A stretch of 64,000 nucleotides of DNA. Source: Streptomyces alfalfae (GTDB taxonomy: Bacteria > Actinomycetota > Actinomycetes > Streptomycetales > Streptomycetaceae). Numbering within the stretch: position 1 is the first letter of the stretch; each line of letters opens with the position of its first letter. The stretch is from NCBI RefSeq assembly GCF_004127445.1, contig NZ_QEXM01000003.1:124001-188000 (forward strand), written 5' to 3'. Below, one piece after another: positions 34,605 to 48,064 of this stretch. A model generated the notes under the pieces. It searched no databases. It was not told where the DNA came from and was given only the letters and a program-made list of their open reading frames with translations. The translations under genes and the position numbers were made by a program.

Positions 34605-35549
34605 TCAACGCTCGGCGCGCGCGGACGCCAGCAGATGGTCGCGCACGAGGGCCACGTGCGGGTTGTCGGAGGAACCGGGGCGCTGGACGAGGTAGCCGGT
34701 GTTGATGGGCGGGTCCTCGGGGTCGTCGAGCAGGACCAGCGCCCCCGAGGCCAGTTCGTCGAGACACAGGTAGCGGGGCAGCACGCTGAAGCCCGCGCCG
34801 CCCACCACCGCGGCCTTGACCGCCCGCAGGTCGGGCATGGTGAGGGCGGGCTGGCACACCAGGCGCCTGCCGTAGACGTGCCGCCAGTAGCGGCGCACGA
34901 TCGGCAGGTCCTCGGCGTACGCGACCAGGGGCACGCCGTTCAGCACCGCGGGCCCGTCCGCGGCGACACGCCCCCTGCCGCCGATGCGCTCCGCCCATGA
35001 GGCGCCCGTGACCAGCACGAACTCCTCGTCGGCGAGCGGCACCGAGGCGAGCGCGCGCCCGCGTGGCCGGGCCGTGGCGATGACGAGGTCGTGCCGGCCG
35101 GAGCGCAGCTCCGCCAGGAGGTCGTCGGTGAGGCCCGTCGTGATCCGCAGCCGCACCCCCTTCTCCACCAGCGGGCCGAGGCCGGGCAGCACGCTGTGGG
35201 AGAGGAACTCCGCCGGGCCCGCCACGTGGACCGGTTCGGCCTGGGCGTCGACGCTGTGACCCGCGACCTCGGCCAGGGCGTCCAGGGGCTCGCCGATGCG
35301 GGCCGCCAGCTCGTCGGCGAACGGCGCGGGGGCCGCGCCGCGCGGCGTCCGCGCGAACAGCTCCCGGTCGAGCCGGCGCTCCAGGGAGCGGATCTGGGCG
35401 GTGACGGTGGGCTGCGAGAGACCGAGGAGGCGGGCGGCGGCCGTGAAGGATCCCGAGCGGTAGACCGCGAGGAAGGTCCGCAGCTGGTTCAGGTCGAGCG
35501 ACGCGGTCCCCGCGGCCGCCTCGTCGCCGTCGTCCTCTCTTCGGTGCAT
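34605..35549 (-). CDS. LysR-family transcriptional regulator
   Basis: A 314-residue LysR-type regulator: N-terminal winged HTH (LNQLRTFLAVYRSGSFTAAARLLGLSQPTVTAQI) and a periplasmic-binding-like effector domain from about residue 100 (PVHVAGPAEFLSHSVLPGLG). Such proteins bind upstream of a neighbouring target; the flavin oxidoreductase gene lies 50 bp upstream on the same strand and the TetR gene is convergent, so the target is not obvious. ATG 35549 lies after a run of acidic codons in the next frame; the N-terminal 15 residues are extra to the family core. Confidence 0.9.
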   Translation of the reverse strand: MHRREDDGDEAAAGTASLDLNQLRTFLAVYRSGSFTAAARLLGLSQPTVTAQIRSLERRLDRELFARTPRGAAPAPFADELAARIGEPLDALAEVAGHSVDAQAEPVHVAGPAEFLSHSVLPGLGPLVEKGVRLRITTGLTDDLLAELRSGRHDLVIATARPRGRALASVPLADEEFVLVTGASWAERIGGRGRVAADGPAVLNGVPLVAYAEDLPIVRRYWRHVYGRRLVCQPALTMPDLRAVKAAVVGGAGFSVLPRYLCLDELASGALVLLDDPEDPPINTGYLVQRPGSSDNPHVALVRDHLLASARAER

Positions 35550-35599
35550 ACGGCCGAGCCTAGGCTCCGTCCGTGCCCGGGGCGCGGGGTGGGTCCCGG

Positions 35600-36475
35600 T
35601 CAGCGCACCAGCGGGGCGACCTGGTCCGTGACGAAGCGGACGTAGCCCTCCGGGTCCGGCTCGTCGGCGGTGGGCTGGAGGACCACGGTGTCGGCGCCCG
35701 CCTCGGCCAGGCGGAGCACGGCCTTCGCCACGTCCTCGGCGCCGCCCGCCACGCCGAGCCCCGGCACCTGTGCGTTGCCCTCGCGCCGCAGCTCCGCGTC
35801 CAGGCGCGCCCGTGCGCCGGGCCCGGTCGCGGCGTGGAGGTAGACCACCACCGGGTGCGGCCGGTCCGTGCGGCCTGCCGCCTCGCGGCCCTCGTCGATG
35901 AGCCGCCGCGCCCCGCGCACACCGTCCGGCGGGGTGCTCGCGTCGAGGATCGTGCCGTCCGCCGCCTCCCCGGTGAGCCGGACCGAGCGGGGGCCGCGCG
36001 CACCCGCGTACACGGCGGGGGCGGTGGCGGGCGGCCAGTCGAGGGCGACGTCGTCGAGGCGTACGTACCGCCCCTCGGTGGTGACGCGCTCGCCCGCGAG
36101 CAACGCCCGCATGGCGTCGAGGTGTTCGCGCAGCAGCGTCAGCGGGGACTCGGCCCGCGCGCCGACCTGCCCCATCCAGTCCTGTACGCCGTGCCCCACC
36201 CCGAGCATGACGCGGCCGGGGAAGAGACGGTGCAAGGTGGCCGCCTCCATCGTGGTGACCGCCGCGTTCCGCAGGGGTACGGGGAGCAGGCCCACCCCCA
36301 CGCGCAGCCGCTCGGACCAGGCGAGCGCCGCGGCGGCGGTCGCGATGCCGCTCTCCAGGAAGCAGTCCTCCCAGAGCCACAGCTCGGCGAGGCCCGCGGC
36401 CTCGGCCTCGCGCACCACGTCGCGCAGCCGCTCGGGCGGGAGTTGGGGACGGAACACCATGCCGAGAGTCGTCAT
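35600..36475 (-). CDS. Luciferase-like (LLM class) flavin oxidoreductase
   Basis: A 291-residue TIM-barrel flavoprotein, probably F420-dependent like many actinobacterial members. GMVFRPQLPPERLRDVVREAEAAGLAELWLWEDCF, GRVMLGVGHGVQDWMGQVGAR and the C-terminal VLRLAEAGADTVVLQPTADEPD are typical of the group. Substrate unknown. Upstream is only 57 bp to the CGNR gene on the same strand. Confidence 0.88.
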   Translation of the reverse strand: MTTLGMVFRPQLPPERLRDVVREAEAAGLAELWLWEDCFLESGIATAAAALAWSERLRVGVGLLPVPLRNAAVTTMEAATLHRLFPGRVMLGVGHGVQDWMGQVGARAESPLTLLREHLDAMRALLAGERVTTEGRYVRLDDVALDWPPATAPAVYAGARGPRSVRLTGEAADGTILDASTPPDGVRGARRLIDEGREAAGRTDRPHPVVVYLHAATGPGARARLDAELRREGNAQVPGLGVAGGAEDVAKAVLRLAEAGADTVVLQPTADEPDPEGYVRFVTDQVAPLVR

Positions 36476-36532
36476 CCCGCCTTCCTATCGCGGCGGCCCC
36501 GGGCGATCAACCGGGTTTCCCGCGGCCGGGAG

Positions 36533-37054
36533 CTACGCCGCCGCGCGCGCCCGGTGGCGGCGGACCGCGTCGCGGTTGGCGCACCGCTGGGAGCAGTAGC
36601 GCTGCCGCCCGGTCCGTGAGGTGTCGGCGAAGATCGTGACGCACTCCGCGACCGCGCAGCGGCGCAGCCGGTGCATGCCGCGCCCCACCAGGTGCAGCGC
36701 GGTGCCGACCGCGATGAGCGAGGCGAGCAGGGCGCCGAGCGACAGCCGGTCCTCGCGGTAGTGCAGGTGCCAGCCGTCGCCCGCGTGGTCGGTGAGCCGG
36801 GGGTGGGCGGTGGACTCGGCGAGCATGCGGTTGGCGCGGTCGGCGCGCTCCTGCTCCCCCGTGGCGTCGACGACCTCCTCCCAGGCGTCGAGGACGGCCA
36901 GGGTGCGGGCCACGTCCGCCTCGGTGGCGGGGTGTTCCAGGGCTAGACCGGCCGCGCGGCAGCGCCGCGTCAGCTCATCGGCGTCGGCGGGGCGGCGGTT
37001 GCAGAGGTCCGCGGCGAGGTTCACGGCGTCCGTGCCGTAAGGGTTGAGGTGCAT
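36533..37054 (-). CDS. CGNR zinc-finger transcriptional regulator
   Basis: A 173-residue stress-responsive regulator of the ABATE-CGNR family. The N-terminal ligand-binding ABATE domain starts DAVNLAADLCNRR; the C-terminal zinc finger reads LRRCAVAECVTIFAD then RQRYCSQRCANRDAVRRHR, with four Cys and the CxNR motif. Divergent from the GNAT gene with only 26 bp between starts, so both must share one control region. Confidence 0.92.
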   Translation of the reverse strand: MHLNPYGTDAVNLAADLCNRRPADADELTRRCRAAGLALEHPATEADVARTLAVLDAWEEVVDATGEQERADRANRMLAESTAHPRLTDHAGDGWHLHYREDRLSLGALLASLIAVGTALHLVGRGMHRLRRCAVAECVTIFADTSRTGRQRYCSQRCANRDAVRRHRARAAA

Positions 37055-37080
37055 GAGGTCATTACACCAGGCTGACCGTC

Positions 37081-37614
37081 GTGAGCCTCTCCACCGGACA
37101 CCGGACCGCCTCCGCCTCCCCCACCGCTGGACCCGCCGGCCGCCACGGCGCCGTACGGCGGGCCGTGCCCGACGACATCCCGGAACTCGTGCGCCTGCGC
37201 GCGCTGCTCTTCGAGGACCGCGGCGGCGACTACTTCAGCCCCGCCGCCACCCCCGGCGACTGGCGCCACGACCTCGCCGCCGTCCTGGCGGCGAAGCTGG
37301 CCTCGAAGAGCGTCCGCGTCCTGGTCGTGGACGGTGACCGGGGCCTCGCCGCCTGCGCCATCGGCACCGTCGAGCACTGGTTCCCCGGGCCGCACAACCG
37401 CAATGGCCGGGTCGGCCACGTGATCGGCGTGGTCACCGACCCCGCGTACCGGCGGCGCGGCCACAGCCGGGCCATCATGCGGGCCCTGCTCGACTGGTTC
37501 CGCGAGCAGGGCGCGTCCCGCGTGGACCTCTACGCCTCGGACGACGGCGCACCGCTCTACCGCGCCCTCGGCTTCGTCGACCACCCCGATCCGGCGCTGT
37601 ATCGGCGCCCGTGA
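37081..37614 (+). CDS. GNAT-family N-acetyltransferase
   Basis: A 177-residue acyltransferase that moves an acyl group from CoA to an amine. Core motifs are visible: the acetyl-CoA loop VTDPAYRRRGHSRAIM and the C-terminal VDLYASDDGAPLYRALGF with the catalytic-type Tyr. GTG 37081 is chosen since no ATG precedes the domain; the first 20 residues are Ser/Thr/Arg-rich. Acceptor unknown. Confidence 0.87.
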   Translation: MSLSTGHRTASASPTAGPAGRHGAVRRAVPDDIPELVRLRALLFEDRGGDYFSPAATPGDWRHDLAAVLAAKLASKSVRVLVVDGDRGLAACAIGTVEHWFPGPHNRNGRVGHVIGVVTDPAYRRRGHSRAIMRALLDWFREQGASRVDLYASDDGAPLYRALGFVDHPDPALYRRP

Positions 37615-37743
37615 CGGTTCGGGGCCCCGCCCCGCCGTTGGTGCGACGGCACGAACAGCGCCGCTCATCTTGGGACCGCACGACGAACTCCTGATCATCG
37701 GTCTCCCCTAGCATCGCCGCATGCTTTCGATTGGGAGGTCCCT

Positions 37744-38880
37744 GTGAGTGACACACCGATGGCCCCGTCGGCCGACCGGCTCTCCGCGATGGTCGCGGAC
37801 CTGCGGGAACTGGTGGTCTGCGAGTCCTTCTCCGCGGACCTCGACGCCGTGGCGCGCAGTGCCGACGTCGTGGCCGCGCAGGGCGCCCGGCACCTCGGCG
37901 CACCGCCCGAGCGCCTCGTCGTGGACGGGGTCACGCATCTGCGGTGGACGTTCGGCACCCCGAAGGTCCTGCTCCTCGGTCACCACGACACCGTGTGGCC
38001 GATGGGTTCACTCGCCACCCATCCGTGGTCCCTGGAGGACGGGGTCGCCCGCGGGCCCGGCGTCTTCGACATGAAGGCCGGTCTCGTGCAGATGTTCCAC
38101 GCCCTGGCCTCGCTGCCCTCCCTGGAGGGGGTGTGCGTGCTGGTGACCGGGGACGAGGAGGTCGGCTCCGACACCTCGCGGGCGCTCATCGAGGAGACGG
38201 CGCGGCAGTGCGCGGCGACCTTCGTCCTGGAGGCCTCCGCCGACGGCGGCGCCGTCAAGACCGGCCGCAAGGGCACGTCCGCGTACGAGCTCGTGGTGCA
38301 CGGCAGGGCGGCGCACTCCGGTCTCGAACCGGAGAAGGGCGTCAACGCGGCGATCGGGGCCGCCCATGTCACGCTCGCCCTGGAGGGGCTCGCCGCGGAG
38401 GTCGACGCCGGGGCGCCCGACGACTGGCGCACGACCGTGACGCCGACGATGTCCTGGGCGGGCTCGACGACCAACACGGTGCCCGCGCAGGCCACCGTCT
38501 GCGTCGACGTGCGCGTGCCCACCCTCGACGCGCAGCAGGCGGTGGACGCGGCGGTGCGGCGGCTCGACGTGCCCGTGCCGGGGGCGCGCCTGGAGGTGCG
38601 CGGCGGACCGAACCGGCCGCCGCTGGAGAACGCCTCGTCCGCCGGTCTCTTCGAGCGGGCGAGCGCGATCGCCGCACGCCTGGGCATCGGACCGCTGCGC
38701 TCGGCGAGGGTCGGCGGGGCGTCCGACGGCAACTTCACCGCCGGGCTCGGCTGCCCGACCCTCGACGGCCTCGGCGCCGTGGGCGGCGGGGCGCACGCCG
38801 ACGACGAGCATGTGGTCGTCGCCGAGATGGCGCCCCGCGCACGGCTCCTGGCCGCCCTCGTCGAAGAGGTCGCGCGGTGA
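37744..38880 (+). CDS. M20-family metallohydrolase, probable N-succinyl-L-amino acid desuccinylase
   Basis: A 378-residue zinc peptidase-fold amidohydrolase. The metal-binding set is complete: GHHDTVW, GPGVFDMKAGL, TGDEEVGSD and the dimer-domain HGRAAHSG. GTG 37744 follows GGGAGG. The frame overlaps the next gene (GTGA at 38877-38880), which encodes a COG3375-type acyltransferase, and an OSBS/NSAR enolase follows. In Geobacillus the same three functions (D-amino acid N-succinyltransferase, N-succinylamino acid racemase, L-desuccinylase) convert D- to L-amino acids irreversibly, so desuccinylase is the inferred role. A glutamate carboxypeptidase activity is the alternative. Confidence 0.9.
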   Translation: MSDTPMAPSADRLSAMVADLRELVVCESFSADLDAVARSADVVAAQGARHLGAPPERLVVDGVTHLRWTFGTPKVLLLGHHDTVWPMGSLATHPWSLEDGVARGPGVFDMKAGLVQMFHALASLPSLEGVCVLVTGDEEVGSDTSRALIEETARQCAATFVLEASADGGAVKTGRKGTSAYELVVHGRAAHSGLEPEKGVNAAIGAAHVTLALEGLAAEVDAGAPDDWRTTVTPTMSWAGSTTNTVPAQATVCVDVRVPTLDAQQAVDAAVRRLDVPVPGARLEVRGGPNRPPLENASSAGLFERASAIAARLGIGPLRSARVGGASDGNFTAGLGCPTLDGLGAVGGGAHADDEHVVVAEMAPRARLLAALVEEVAR

Positions 38881-39662
38881 GCGGCCTCACCGTACGGGAA
38901 CTGCACGACCTGCCCGACCTGGAGGCGGTCGACTCCCTCTTCTCGCGCATCTGGGGCGCGGGGCCCGGCGGTTCACCGATGGGCGTCGAGCAGATGCGGG
39001 CCCTGTCGCACGCCGGCAACTACGTCGCCGGCGCGTACGCCGACGGCCGCCTGGTCGGCGCGACCGTCGCCTTCTTCGCGGCGCCGGTGGGCCAGGCGCT
39101 GCACTCGCACGTCACCGGCGCCCTGCCCGGCCACGCGGCGGGCCTCGCCCTGAAGCGGCACCAGCGCGCGTGGGCGCTGGACCGCGGCCTGTCCCGGATC
39201 ACCTGGACCTACGACCCGCTGGTGCGGCGCAACGCCCACTTCAACCTCACCAAGCTCGGCGCGCGCCCGGTGGAGTACCTCACCGGCTTCTACGGCCCCA
39301 TGGACGACGCGATCAACGGCGGCGACGACACCGACCGCGCCCTGTGCTCCTGGGAGCTCTCCGACCCCGCGGTGGTCGCCGCCGCGGCCTCGGCGCCGCT
39401 CCCGGTGACCGTCCCCGACGGCGCGGTGACCGCCCTCGCGGCGCGGGACGGGCTGCCGGTCACCGGCCGCCTCGACGCCCCCGCGCTGCTGGTCGAGGTC
39501 CCGCCCGACATCGAGGCGCTGCGCCGCACCGACCCCGGGGCGGCCAAGGCGTGGCGGCTCGCGCTGCGCGAGGTGCTCGGCGGGCTGCTCGCGACGGGGG
39601 CCACGGTCACCGGCTTCGACGACCGCACCTCGTACGTGGTCGTACGCGACACCACTCCGTGA
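38877..39662 (+). CDS. COG3375-type GNAT, probable D-amino acid N-succinyltransferase
   Basis: A 261-residue member of the predicted GNAT family COG3375, marked by DLEAVDSLFSRIWG at the start, HSHVTGALPGHAAGLALKRHQRAWAL, and ITWTYDPLVRRNAHFNLTKLGA. GTG 38877 overlaps the desuccinylase stop. Members clustered with NSAR in Geobacillus succinylate D-amino acids, which makes the downstream racemisation and hydrolysis drive the route towards the L form. Acyl donor and specificity are inferred from operon context. Confidence 0.82.
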   Translation: MSGLTVRELHDLPDLEAVDSLFSRIWGAGPGGSPMGVEQMRALSHAGNYVAGAYADGRLVGATVAFFAAPVGQALHSHVTGALPGHAAGLALKRHQRAWALDRGLSRITWTYDPLVRRNAHFNLTKLGARPVEYLTGFYGPMDDAINGGDDTDRALCSWELSDPAVVAAAASAPLPVTVPDGAVTALAARDGLPVTGRLDAPALLVEVPPDIEALRRTDPGAAKAWRLALREVLGGLLATGATVTGFDDRTSYVVVRDTTP

Positions 39663-39721
39663 GCGCGCCCTCCTCGCCGCTCCCCCTCGCACGCACCCCT
39701 CTTTCTCAGGAGCCCCGCACC

Positions 39722-40822
39722 ATGAAGATCACCGGAATCGAACTGCGCCGGATCGCGATGCCCCTGCGGGCGCCGTTCCGCACCTCGTTCGGCGTGGAGA
39801 CCGCGCGTGACGTCCTGCTCGTGCGCGTGGTCACGCCCGACGGCGAGGGCTGGGGCGAGTGCGTCGCCATGTCGGAGCCGCGCTACTGCTCCGAGTACGT
39901 CGAAGGGGCCGCCGACGTGCTGCGCCGCTTCCTCGTCCCCGCGCTGCCCGCCGTCGCCGACGCGCACGCGGTCAAGCGCGCGCTGAAGCCCTTCAAGGGG
40001 CACAAGATGGCCAAGGCCGCCCTGGAGACGGCCGTCCTCGACGCCCAGTTGCGCGCCACCGGCCAGTCGTTCGGCGCCTACCTCGGCGCCGAGCGCGAGC
40101 GGGTGCCGTGCGGCGTGTCGGTCGGCATCATGGACTCCGTCCCGCAGCTCCTCGACTCCGTGGGCGCCTTCATCGACGAGGGGTACGTCCGCATCAAGCT
40201 GAAGATCGAGCCGGGCTGGGACGTGGAGCCGGTGCGCGCGGTCCGCGAGCGGTTCGGCGACGACCTGCTGCTCCAGGTGGACGCCAACGCCGCCTACACC
40301 CTGGCCGACACCCGGCAGCTCGCCAAGCTGGACGACTTCGACCTGCTGCTCGTCGAACAGCCGCTGGCCGACGACGACCTCGTCCAGCACGCGGCGCTCG
40401 CGAAGCGGCTGCGCACGCCGGTCTGCCTGGACGAGTCGATCGAGTCCGCCGAGGACGCCGCCGCGGCGATCACGCTGGGCGCCGCCTCCGTCATCAACGT
40501 CAAGCCGGGCCGCGTCGGCGGCTATCTGGAGGCCAAGGCCATCCATGACGTGTGCGTGGCCCACGGCGTGCCCGTGTGGTGCGGGGGCATGCTGGAGACC
40601 GGCATCGGCCGCGCCGCCAACGTCGCCCTCGCCGCGCTGCCCGGCTTCACCCTGCCCGGCGACACCTCCGGATCGAGCCGGTACTTCGCCACGGACGTGA
40701 CCGCGCCGTTCGAGCTGGCCGACGGCCATCTCGACGTGCCCACCGGGCCCGGACTCGGCGTGGAACCGCTCGACGAGGTCCTCGACCGGGTGACGACGGC
40801 CAAGGAGTGGATCCAGCTCTAG
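39722..40822 (+). CDS. Enolase-superfamily OSBS/N-succinylamino acid racemase
   Basis: A 366-residue enzyme of the MenC/NSAR family. All catalytic residues are present: KxK at 159-161, metal ligands Asp187, Glu212 and Asp237, and Lys261 in NVKPGRVGG. The family includes o-succinylbenzoate synthases and N-succinylamino acid racemases, often with both activities. Streptomyces make menaquinone by the futalosine route and need no OSBS, and the two genes upstream supply the matching acyltransferase and hydrolase, so racemase is the better call. ATG 39722 lies 59 bp after the previous stop behind AGGAG. Confidence 0.9.
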   Translation: MKITGIELRRIAMPLRAPFRTSFGVETARDVLLVRVVTPDGEGWGECVAMSEPRYCSEYVEGAADVLRRFLVPALPAVADAHAVKRALKPFKGHKMAKAALETAVLDAQLRATGQSFGAYLGAERERVPCGVSVGIMDSVPQLLDSVGAFIDEGYVRIKLKIEPGWDVEPVRAVRERFGDDLLLQVDANAAYTLADTRQLAKLDDFDLLLVEQPLADDDLVQHAALAKRLRTPVCLDESIESAEDAAAAITLGAASVINVKPGRVGGYLEAKAIHDVCVAHGVPVWCGGMLETGIGRAANVALAALPGFTLPGDTSGSSRYFATDVTAPFELADGHLDVPTGPGLGVEPLDEVLDRVTTAKEWIQL

Positions 40823-40896
40823 GGCCCGTCTCTGCGGTGGCCCGGCCTCCCGTCCCCGCGTGCGCTGCGCGACTCCGCAGCGGGCAGGCTGGGATC

Positions 40897-42126
40897 ATGG
40901 ACTCTCCACGCGACCCGGCCTCCCCCGCCGCCCCGCCCCGCGGAACGGAGTGGATCACCACTCCGTTCACCACGGCTCTCGCCGAGCGCCTCGTGCGCGG
41001 CGCGCTCGACGTGGAGCGCACCGCGCACGGGGTCCTGCCGCACCGGCTGCCGGCCCGCGCCCGCGCGCAGAACACCGACGAGCAGGTGGCGCGGGCGGAG
41101 GCCATGCCCGCCGGTGTCCGCCTGGTCTTCCGCACCAGGGCCACCGTGGTGGAACTCGCCGCCCTGCGCACCAAGATGGCGTACGAGGGCGCGCCGCCGG
41201 GCCCGGACGGGATGTACGACCTGCTGGTCGACGGCCGCCTGGCCGGCCGGCGTGGTGTGACGGGCGGCAACGTGCTCCTGATGGACCTGGCGACCGGGGC
41301 CACAAAGACCCGGCAGGGGCCGGTCGGCGCGGTCCGCTTCGCGGGGCTGCCGGCCGGTGACAAGGACGTGGAGATCTGGCTGCCGCACAACGAGATCACC
41401 GAGCTGGTCTTGCTGCGCACCGACGCTCCGGTCGAACCCTGCCCGGCCGGCGACCGCACGGTGTGGCTGCACCACGGCAGCTCCATCAGCCAGGGCGCCG
41501 AGGCCGCGGGCCCCACCGCGACCTGGCCCGCGGCAGCCGCCTCGCTCGGCGGAGTGGACCTGGTCAACCTCGGGCTGAGCGGCAGCGCGCTCCTGGACCC
41601 GTTCGTCGCGCGGGCCCTGCGGGACACTCCCGCGGACCTGATCAGCGTCAAGCTCGGCATCAACATCGTCAACCTGGACCTGATGCGGCTCCGCGCCTTC
41701 GGGCCCGCGGTGCACGGCTTCCTCGACACGATCCGCGAGGGCCACCCGCACACTCCCCTGCTGGTCGTCTCCCCCCTGCTGTGCCCCATGCACGAGGACA
41801 CGCCGGGCCCCGCGGCCCCCGACCTCGGTGAGGGCCGCTTCGGGTTCGCGGCCATGGGCGACCCGGCGGAGCGGGACACGGGCAAACTGACGCTCACCGT
41901 GATCCGGGAGGAACTGGCCCGCGTCGTCGAGCAGCGCGCGGCCGACGACCCGCACCTCCACCACCTCGACGGCCTCGCCCTCTACGGTCCCGCGGACTGC
42001 GCCGAACTCCCCCTCCCGGACCAGCTCCATCCGGGCCCGCGGGCCCACCGCCGCATCGGCGAACGCTTCGCCGCGTACGCCTTCGCCCCCGGCGGACCGC
42101 TCCAGCGCCGGCCTACTGGCTCCTGA
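40897..42126 (+). CDS. SGNH/GDSL-type hydrolase with N-terminal beta domain
   Basis: A 409-residue esterase-like protein without a signal peptide. The N-terminal 185 residues form a beta-rich domain; the SGNH domain starts with HHGSSISQG (nucleophile probably Ser196), then LVNLGLSGS, KLGINIVN with the oxyanion Asn, and PDQLHPGPRAH with the Asp/His pair. The two-domain plan matches the carbohydrate-esterase-like SGNH family of Actinobacteria. Its last 14 bp overlap the end of the convergent MFS gene. Confidence 0.85.
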   Translation: MDSPRDPASPAAPPRGTEWITTPFTTALAERLVRGALDVERTAHGVLPHRLPARARAQNTDEQVARAEAMPAGVRLVFRTRATVVELAALRTKMAYEGAPPGPDGMYDLLVDGRLAGRRGVTGGNVLLMDLATGATKTRQGPVGAVRFAGLPAGDKDVEIWLPHNEITELVLLRTDAPVEPCPAGDRTVWLHHGSSISQGAEAAGPTATWPAAAASLGGVDLVNLGLSGSALLDPFVARALRDTPADLISVKLGINIVNLDLMRLRAFGPAVHGFLDTIREGHPHTPLLVVSPLLCPMHEDTPGPAAPDLGEGRFGFAAMGDPAERDTGKLTLTVIREELARVVEQRAADDPHLHHLDGLALYGPADCAELPLPDQLHPGPRAHRRIGERFAAYAFAPGGPLQRRPTGS

Positions 42127-46867: not shown

Positions 46868-48064
46868 TCACCCGAGGCCTGGCGGCAGCTTCGCGCCCTT
46901 CGGGGCGGGCGCCCCGCAGAACTCCGCCTCGATCACGGCGACGTACAGCGACCCGTCCGGCAGCCAGTCGCCGTTGACGTTGAACGTCAGCTGACGCCTG
47001 CCGTCGGGCGTGCCGACCATCGCGGAGAGCGAGCCGTTCGTACGGCCGCTCTTGCCCACCACCTTCACTCCGCAGGACAGCTCGGCGAACTCGACGCCGA
47101 GCCCGTATCCCAGCCCCTCGCCCACCGGCACCTCGTCGAGCATCGCCGTCATCTGCGCGCGGGGAAGCAACGTGCCGCGCATGAGCGCGCGGTGGAAGCG
47201 GTTGAGGTCGCCCGCGGTGGAGATGACGTCGCCGGCCGCGCCGAGCCAGGTCATGTTCTGTTCGGTGGCGTCGACGACGGGTGCGTCGGGGGCCTCCTGG
47301 TGCAGCCGCGAGTAGCCGACCGGGTGCGGCTTCGGCATCCGGGGGTCGGCGCCGGGGAACGAGGTGCCGCGCAGCTTCAGCGGGCGGATGAGGCGGCGGG
47401 TGACCTCGCGCTCGTAGGTGCGGCCGGTCGCCTTCTCGATGACCATCCCGGCGATCACGTAGTTGGTGTTGGAGTACAGCGGGTTCTTCTCCGGGTCGGG
47501 GTGGGGCGGCTGCTTCAGGGCCAGCGCCACCAGGTCCTCGGGGGCGTGGTCGTCGTAGCGGTGCTCGGGGAAGCCGGGGCCCGCGGCGTCGTGCGCGAAC
47601 CGCGGGTCGTCGGTGTGGCTCGCGATACCGCTGGTGTGGTTCAGGAGCTGCCGCAGGGTGATCTCGCCGCCGTCGTAGCCGTTGCCCCGCACCAGGCCGG
47701 GCAGCCACTTCTCGACCGTGTCGTCCAGGTCGAGCCTCCCCTCCGCCTCCAGCTGGAGCAGGACGGTCGCGATGAACGTCTTGGTGATGCTGGCCCCGCG
47801 GAAGTGGTCACCGGCCGAACGCGCACGCCCCGTGGCGGTGTCCGCGTGCCCGGCGGCCCCGAACCACGTCGCCGCGCCGTCCCGGGCCAGCGCGGCCACC
47901 CCGGGCTGACCGCCCTTGTCGATCAGGTCGTTCAGCGCCCTCGCGGTGGCCGTGTGCCCCGGTCCCCGCTCCGCCGCCTGTGCGGCCGGGGTGAGCGTCG
48001 CCGCGCCCAGGGCCCCCGTCACGGCCAGTGCGAGCAGAGCGGTACGTGCGGCTCGTCGCTTCAT
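46868..48064 (-). CDS. Secreted serine hydrolase (beta-lactamase / D-Ala-D-Ala carboxypeptidase fold)
   Basis: A 398-residue exported hydrolase. A signal peptide (RRAARTALLALAVTGALGAATLTPAAQA) leads to a class C-like fold with ASITKTF (Ser-x-x-Lys), YSNTNY (Tyr-x-Asn) and GKSGRTNG as the KTG-like box. Streptomyces R61-type DD-peptidases, esterases and D-aminopeptidases share these motifs; no feature favours beta-lactam resistance. It is divergent from the FG-GAP protein gene, with 217 bp between starts. Confidence 0.9.
   Translation of the reverse strand: MKRRAARTALLALAVTGALGAATLTPAAQAAERGPGHTATARALNDLIDKGGQPGVAALARDGAATWFGAAGHADTATGRARSAGDHFRGASITKTFIATVLLQLEAEGRLDLDDTVEKWLPGLVRGNGYDGGEITLRQLLNHTSGIASHTDDPRFAHDAAGPGFPEHRYDDHAPEDLVALALKQPPHPDPEKNPLYSNTNYVIAGMVIEKATGRTYEREVTRRLIRPLKLRGTSFPGADPRMPKPHPVGYSRLHQEAPDAPVVDATEQNMTWLGAAGDVISTAGDLNRFHRALMRGTLLPRAQMTAMLDEVPVGEGLGYGLGVEFAELSCGVKVVGKSGRTNGSLSAMVGTPDGRRQLTFNVNGDWLPDGSLYVAVIEAEFCGAPAPKGAKLPPGLG

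Follow-up and report, generated by a model that had tools for sequence, protein, structure and literature searches.

Described D- to L-amino acid conversion systems and the Streptomyces alfalfae operon

In Geobacillus kaustophilus, D-amino acids are reportedly turned into L-amino acids by an N-succinyltransferase, an N-succinylamino acid racemase (NSAR) and an L-desuccinylase, a pathway said to go back to Sakai et al. in 2006 (Biochemistry 45:4455); the present work concerns a three-gene operon proposed to encode a variant of that route in Streptomyces alfalfae (assembly GCF_004127445.1, contig NZ_QEXM01000003.1, positions 124,001 to 188,000; this whole 64,000-nucleotide stretch is hereafter the window). 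Enzymes of the NSAR/o-succinylbenzoate synthase (OSBS) subfamily are a well-known case of promiscuity, and sequence is a poor guide to which of them act as amino acid racemases in vivo. One characterised member, the N-acylamino acid racemase (NAAAR)/NSAR of Amycolatopsis sp. T-1-60, is presumably the enzyme seen in the chains 1sja, 4a6g and 7s8w. The available passages of PMC7431475 describe the NSAR and L-succinylase of G. kaustophilus as a tandem, and those of PMC8142540 name the Amycolatopsis strain 'Ts-1-60'.

In keeping with the first-pass annotation of this DNA, which noted the three genes and the 4-bp overlap, genes for an M20 hydrolase (protein P0001), a GNAT acyltransferase (P0002) and an NSAR/OSBS-type enolase were found together on one strand, the M20 stop and the GNAT start sharing 4 bp (GTGA) and the enolase gene following the GNAT gene after 59 bp:

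37744-38880, forward strand: M20 metallohydrolase, carboxypeptidase-G2-like, proposed N-succinyl-L-amino acid desuccinylase; GTG start, TGA stop, 378 amino acids, family by Pfam
38877-39662, forward strand: GNAT-fold acyltransferase with a C-terminal domain, proposed D-amino acid N-succinyltransferase; GTG start, TGA stop, 261 amino acids, fold by AlphaFold2
39722-40822, forward strand: NSAR/OSBS-subfamily enolase, proposed NSAR; ATG start, TAG stop, 366 amino acids, family by TIGR01928

We consider it likely that this operon salvages D-amino acids by acylation (most likely succinylation), racemisation and deacylation. The GNAT would N-acylate a D-amino acid, most probably with the succinyl group of succinyl-CoA; the enolase, in which the required residues are present, would by homology interconvert the N-succinyl-D and N-succinyl-L forms through a two-lysine, metal-dependent 1,1-proton transfer; and the M20 would cleave only the N-succinyl-L form, yielding L-amino acid and succinate. 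Because one acyl-CoA would be spent, the overall conversion to the L form would be irreversible. We infer that the acyl group is succinyl and that the GNAT is selective for D- and the M20 for L-configured substrates. A D- to L-conversion had also been the reading of the first-pass annotation, and it is supported here by gene order, protein families, residues, the menaquinone genes of the host and the linkage of GNAT and enolase.

With the Geobacillus pathway the window shares the enolase subfamily, the GNAT partner, a hydrolase and the proposed chemistry. In open-licence PMC literature, including the available portions of PMC8142540, PMC8762209 and PMC7431475, we found no description of an actinobacterial GNAT-NSAR-M20 operon or of the copies of DapE reported below; most subscription papers lie outside this search, so novelty is not established.

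The enolase belongs to the NSAR/OSBS subfamily

The enolase matched NCBIfam model TIGR01928 at 315 bits (cut-off 200.65) and the Amycolatopsis NSAR 1sja at E 4.4e-171 over residues 1-364, with 252 of 366 alignment columns identical (68.9%), and this full-length match to both a subfamily model and a characterised NSAR places it in the NSAR/OSBS enolase subfamily. Residues K161, D187, E212, D237, K261 and R264 correspond to K163, D189, E214, D239, K263 and R266 of the Amycolatopsis enzyme; there the lysines are taken to be the catalytic pair and the three acidic residues to bind the metal, with R266 presumably tied to NSAR activity. All positions checked against this enzyme were kept, in agreement with the earlier claim that the catalytic residues of the racemase are intact. 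We propose, from its sequence, that the enolase is an N-succinylamino acid racemase; two further NSAR-like candidates in the 8.27-Mb host genome were each 28% identical, leaving the window enolase as the sole close one.

K161, K261, D187, E212 and D237 were invariant in all 43 aligned enolase rows, whether linked to a GNAT gene or not. R264 was present in all 35 GNAT-linked or characterised rows and also in seven of the eight unlinked rows, so it discriminates weakly for racemase function; as an NSAR marker it was rejected, since the sole deviating enolase was that of one other actinobacterium (G165, see below). A strict clade of GNAT-linked enolases was likewise rejected: the 'linked' label takes 5 changes on the tree, against a shuffled mean of 8.3 and with 0 of 500 shuffles as low, several branches being long and the deep forks weak.

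A GNAT gene is a near-obligate partner of the enolase gene

Relatives were sought at E≤1e-60 for the enolase and E≤1e-10 for the GNAT, a protein being counted as absent when it did not appear among the scored candidates at the E-value given. Among 150 genomes of the same genus, 45 had the enolase (51 rows), and 43 of these 45, but no others, also had the GNAT. In 48 of the 51 enolase rows the GNAT gene lay on the same strand within 2 kb, always upstream, with gaps of 8-435 bp; the three unlinked enolases were 39-47% identical. Of 216 genomes of the phylum, 39 had the enolase (40 rows) and 34 had the GNAT; 34 rows were linked, the GNAT upstream in 32 and downstream in 2. Five of the six unlinked phylum rows were 44-48% identical, and in the sixth (G348, 70%) both genes were present at separate places. 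No genome of either sample (0 of 150 and 0 of 216) had the GNAT only, at the thresholds used. This near-obligate linkage is the strongest evidence for the pathway, and its conservation in other genomes excludes chance co-location.

Two Streptomyces (G006, locus L182; G035, locus L183) have an enolase of 39-41% identity without a GNAT in another common cluster, which in L182, the locus scanned, includes ATP-grasp, RraA-like and M81 genes.

The pair was also found on plasmids. In the six records examined of 44 matched, from Deinococcus radiodurans, Deinococcus sp. QL22, Priestia, Sulfitobacter, Arthrobacter and Streptomyces, the GNAT gene adjoins or lies less than 1 kb from a gene annotated menC (6 of 6), which comes before the GNAT in both Deinococcus plasmids and in that of Sulfitobacter; the two genes are separated in D. 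radiodurans by two short transporter genes. On the plasmid of Streptomyces sp. NBC_01243, the enolase shares 96% identity with the Amycolatopsis NSAR of known crystal structure. Its gene is flanked by those for a GNAT (52% to P0002) and PucR, in surroundings that include an M20 (60% to P0001), an Amidohydro_3 protein and beta-lactamase-family/serine hydrolases, a context that ties the biochemically studied NSAR to the operon type of the window.

We further compared 80 named GNAT loci, the best 80 of 175 relatives and as such biased to close GNAT relatives. Of these, 71 include the enolase, which in 70 is co-directional and no more than 500 bp away; 50 have a P0001-like M20 encoded in the same direction, its gap to the downstream GNAT being under 500 bp. 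Between S. silaceus (L081) and positions 30-50 kb of the window, only the three-gene block is in common, at 85% identity over 3 kb. In Streptomyces sp. WAC 01529 (L187 7133-12880 and 5702-6957) the surroundings at window positions 34618-42098, M20 included, are conserved at 79-83% nucleotide identity, and by the same nucleotide comparison the esterase DNA (window 40897-42126) lies beside the M20, the GNAT-enolase pair (window 38894-40884) being absent between the two. These arrangements indicate that GNAT and enolase move or stay as a unit from which the M20 is separable.

The GNAT protein

No Pfam or NCBIfam family matched the window GNAT at E≤0.001; the label COG3375 stems from the first-pass annotation. 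Its AlphaFold2 model (mean predicted local distance difference test score, pLDDT, 90.9) assigns it to the GNAT fold, residues 2-163 matching GNAT folds in the PDB, with 5isv as the best match (Z up to 15.0, 146 residues aligned at 2.4 A). It has a homologue in the Bacillota, encoded directly before the Priestia enolase gene (31% identity over 256 columns, E 1e-37). The protein may act as a D-amino acid N-succinyltransferase, as we propose from sequence and from its partner genes.

The C-terminal domain (residues 157-261; window 39345-39659) was modelled at pLDDT 89.8 and contains invariant residues, W226, R227 and R231 among them. Foldseek returned no PDB match to it at E≤0.001, a result that does not imply a new fold.

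The third enzyme and the nature of the acyl group

The window M20 matched Pfam Peptidase_M20 (PF01546, 2.5e-25) and M20_dimer (PF07687, 1.6e-16), and aligned with carboxypeptidase G2 (CPG2, 1cg2), a modest similarity at E 1.9e-30 only. H81, D109, E138, E139, E163 and H351, at positions that we take to be the metal ligands and base of CPG2, are all kept, so that by sequence the protein is an M20 member with an intact metal site. The best NCBIfam models, PRK07338 and PRK06133, were both below cut-off, as was every family among the NCBIfam matches listed (25 of 35), and its substrate is therefore not assignable by family. We propose it as a putative N-succinyl-L-amino acid desuccinylase.

The first-pass annotation had seen in the three genes a match to the Geobacillus pathway. 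This stands for the function but not for the M20, which is of another subfamily than that of Priestia, the Bacillota example examined, which stood in for Geobacillus. The M20 of the Priestia operon is an M20D amidohydrolase (TIGR01891, 263 bits, cut-off 153.75) and is barely alignable with the window protein (BLASTP E 3e-04 over 84 columns), and a common subfamily for the CPG2-like and the TIGR01891 enzyme was rejected. The enolases of the window and Priestia are 46% and the GNATs 31% identical.

In a second Streptomyces lineage, with enolases about 61-67% identical, a succinyl-diaminopimelate desuccinylase (DapE; TIGR01900, over cut-off) lies beside the pair, with a divergent gene for PucR in between (scanned loci: L169 and L172), and in L170, L172, L175 and L179 it directly follows, with a 4-bp overlap, a homologue of the amino acid permease of L169. 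Two DapE genes were found in 7 of 20 genomes, the second copy always on the same strand, 1,642-1,978 bp upstream of the GNAT (7 of 7); the other 13 were single-copy. These 20 genomes were hand-chosen: five had a DapE-like open reading frame (ORF) already seen beside the pair, eight others were of the same enolase lineage, four of the lineage of the window (its own genome included), one of the 46% lineage and two without the enolase. Among the seven with two copies, five had been picked for an ORF already seen and two had not. The third enzyme, the deacylase, thus appears to differ between lineages: a CPG2-like M20, an M20D or a second DapE. The pathway type is known; the variant is the CPG2-like third enzyme together with evidence that the deacylase slot is filled in a lineage-dependent manner.

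The recruitment of a desuccinylase (DapE) beside the pair in relatives is also the best clue, an indirect one, to succinyl as the acyl group. In the main rival, the sequence of reactions is unchanged but the acyl group is a different one, in the simplest case acetyl; this rival would combine an acetyl-CoA-dependent GNAT, an N-acetyl racemase and an N-acetyl-L deacylase. It draws on the fold matches of the GNAT, annotated mainly as acetyltransferases, on the racemisation of N-acetyl-methionine by the Amycolatopsis NAAAR, given in the available part of PMC8142540, and on the several N-acyl groups that NSARs accept according to passages of PMC7431475. It would leave the second succinyl-diaminopimelate desuccinylase beside the pair in 7 of the 20 genomes examined to be accounted for, and the available part of PMC8142540 gives a Km of about 11-40 mM for N-acetyl-methionine versus 1.7-2.8 mM for N-succinylphenylglycine (units inferred from the kcat/Km column; the side chains differ). 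We regard acetylation as unlikely and retain succinylation as the preferred first step.

Neighbouring genes and the probable source of D-amino acids

Family scans covered representative genes, from which the assignments were extended to the remaining loci by clustering. The ORFs of relatives (e.g. L180, L204-L206) were predicted from GC bias and should be taken as approximate; for two loci of low GC, L162 and L197, none was obtained. An M19 dipeptidase was present in 30 of the 80 named loci, on the same strand in all 30 and together with the M20 in 29, PucR was present in 14 and an S12 hydrolase in 12. A component of an oligopeptide transporter (Opp) matched in 38, some matches being weak (tblastn with three representatives at 1e-12; matches down to 25-36% identity may be other ABC transporters). 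One Streptomyces locus (L180) contains a run of an SBP_bac_5 binding protein, four genes of ABC permease/ATPase clusters, GNAT, enolase, an M55 D-aminopeptidase, an M20 (35% to P0001) and an S66 LD-carboxypeptidase, and a second (L181) holds the same gene clusters, assigned by clustering, the enolases of the two being 46% identical. In more distant actinobacteria (L204, L205 and L206) S12 and PucR genes surround the pair, with an M19 homologue in two, and in Deinococcus sp. QL22 a D-aminoacylase and a serine hydrolase are annotated near it.

Peptides of murein, or others that contain D-residues, are substrates of the M55, S66 and M19 families. The first-pass annotation had named peptidoglycan or nonribosomal peptides as possible origins of the D-amino acids, and it is the gene surroundings in relatives that would point to such substrates. 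With these neighbours in relatives, the D-amino acids most likely come from peptides, peptidoglycan fragments being the leading guess; for the window, this source would be carried over from relatives.

In another reading, N-acylation would serve detoxification of, or self-resistance to, a D-amino acid or an amino acid-like antibiotic, with racemase and hydrolase recycling the product. Antibiotic-modifying enzymes do occur among the fold matches of the GNAT (AAC(3), phosphinothricin and tabtoxin enzymes), but resistance by acylation requires neither a racemase nor a deacylase, the GNAT was never found without the enolase in the two genome samples, and the neighbours are peptidases and transporters, all of which makes this reading very improbable beside D-amino acid salvage.

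Menaquinone genes and the direction of flow

NCBI names TIGR01928 o-succinylbenzoate synthase, and menC is the annotation given to the plasmid relatives; on these grounds the enolase could be an OSBS (MenC) for menaquinone whose neighbour genes are incidental. The first-pass annotation had held that Streptomyces do not need OSBS for menaquinone and had asked for futalosine genes and the absence of menD and menB. In the host genome, the best profile matches were 140.5 bits for menB (cut-off 342.7) and 62.6 bits for menD (cut-off 244.2), and the futalosine-route model TIGR03700 (mena_SCO4494), which we take to be mqnE, was passed at 542 bits (cut-off 434.55). This agrees with what had been claimed: no complete men pathway was found over cut-off, and with mqnE present and neither menB nor menD over its cut-off, an OSBS role in menaquinone is very unlikely and was rejected for this enolase. 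MenC and the window enolase share the enolase superfamily and the NCBIfam model, and the latter differs by its conserved GNAT linkage and by a genome without MenB or MenD over cut-off.

The G165 enolase is instructive in this respect, being unlinked to a GNAT, 2.4 kb from menB and with M at the R264 position, where 35 of 35 linked or characterised rows have R, features as expected, by sequence, for a true OSBS. Over the phylum set, GNAT-enolase pairs occurred in 27 genomes with menB (E≤1e-60) and in 6 without, so the presence of menB does not predict the pair. We give a menaquinone function of the window enolase next to no credence.

A 3.76-kb stretch with an enoyl-CoA hydratase-like gene (menB model, sub-threshold) was 100% identical at three sites of the host genome (L004, C13 near 119249; L005, C26 near 174818; L006, C53 near 319077), and represents a recent repeat or an assembly effect.

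A flow from L to D, with a D-selective M20 and production of D-amino acids, is conceivable in that the racemase is reversible in principle and D-succinylases are mentioned in the available text of PMC7431475, but it is hardly credible, since the M55, S66, M19 and S12 neighbours are catabolic peptidase families and DapE and CPG2 relatives presumably act on L centres.

Observations weighing against the proposed salvage route

Besides the acetyltransferase annotations of the fold matches, several observations count against D-amino acid salvage by these three enzymes. Five genomes that lack the enolase nevertheless encode M20s like P0001 (67-70% identity), which shows that such M20s are not confined to the pathway. 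An adjacent P0001-type M20 (≥58% identity) was missing in 32 of the 51 same-genus enolase rows (a contig break in the case of G028); the count used 30 of 75 M20 rows (≥58% identity, one partial), and by eye none of the 45 dropped rows was near an enolase. In WAC 01529 the pair is located about 375 kb from the M20 (L185). Nine of the 80 named GNAT loci had no enolase in the available stretch. At least five of the nine come from genomes with another GNAT locus that does include it, so the GNAT may act away from the enolase or do something else; M19, M20 and GNAT are still present in three of the nine (L139, L151 and L155), L139 ending about 200 bp past the GNAT. Homologues of M19, Opp, PucR, M55 and S66 were sought in the window and none was found, and its only S12 homologue lies about 6 kb downstream of the operon.

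Other features of the locus

The genes and spacer flanking the operon were as follows:

37081-37614, forward strand: ORF for another GNAT, upstream of the M20
37615-37743, forward strand: intergenic region 5' of the M20 gene, 129 bp from the stop of that GNAT, presumed promoter site
40897-42126, forward strand: GDSL-family esterase with an SsfX3 N-terminal-like domain (Pfam), starting 74 bp past the enolase

Motifs resembling ribosome-binding sites were seen just 5' of the M20 gene (GGGAGG) and before the enolase gene (AGGAG, 39708-39712). A scan of positions 37500-41000 for sigma-70 and terminator consensus gave no match, and the promoter is therefore presumed only. Repeats resemble the GC-rich coding background. 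On the reverse strand, positions 46868-48064 encode a secreted-looking beta-lactamase-family (S12-like) protein of 398 amino acids, about 30% identical to the pair-adjacent S12 of a relative.

Discussion

The window enolase retains the catalytic and R266 positions of the Amycolatopsis NSAR, whose 96% relative in Streptomyces sp. NBC_01243 stands in a context of M20, GNAT, enolase, PucR and serine hydrolases. We give roughly even chances to a wider proposition, in which GNAT and NSAR would form a conserved, separable two-gene core for D-peptide salvage in several phyla, to which different deacylases and peptidases have repeatedly been added, the duplicated DapE revealing the succinyl tag and GNAT adjacency telling NSAR from OSBS.

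For actinomycetes without a menaquinone route that needs OSBS, the operon would give these enolases a concrete role, the reuse of D-amino acids from peptides and plausibly from peptidoglycan fragments, and the swapped deacylases could supply new L-succinylases for L-amino acid production. A GNAT that almost always accompanies the enolase, peptidase genes nearby and the extra copies of DapE together offer a simple genome-context test for racemising NSAR/OSBS enzymes; if the proposal is true, GNAT adjacency would separate true NSARs from OSBS enzymes by genome context.

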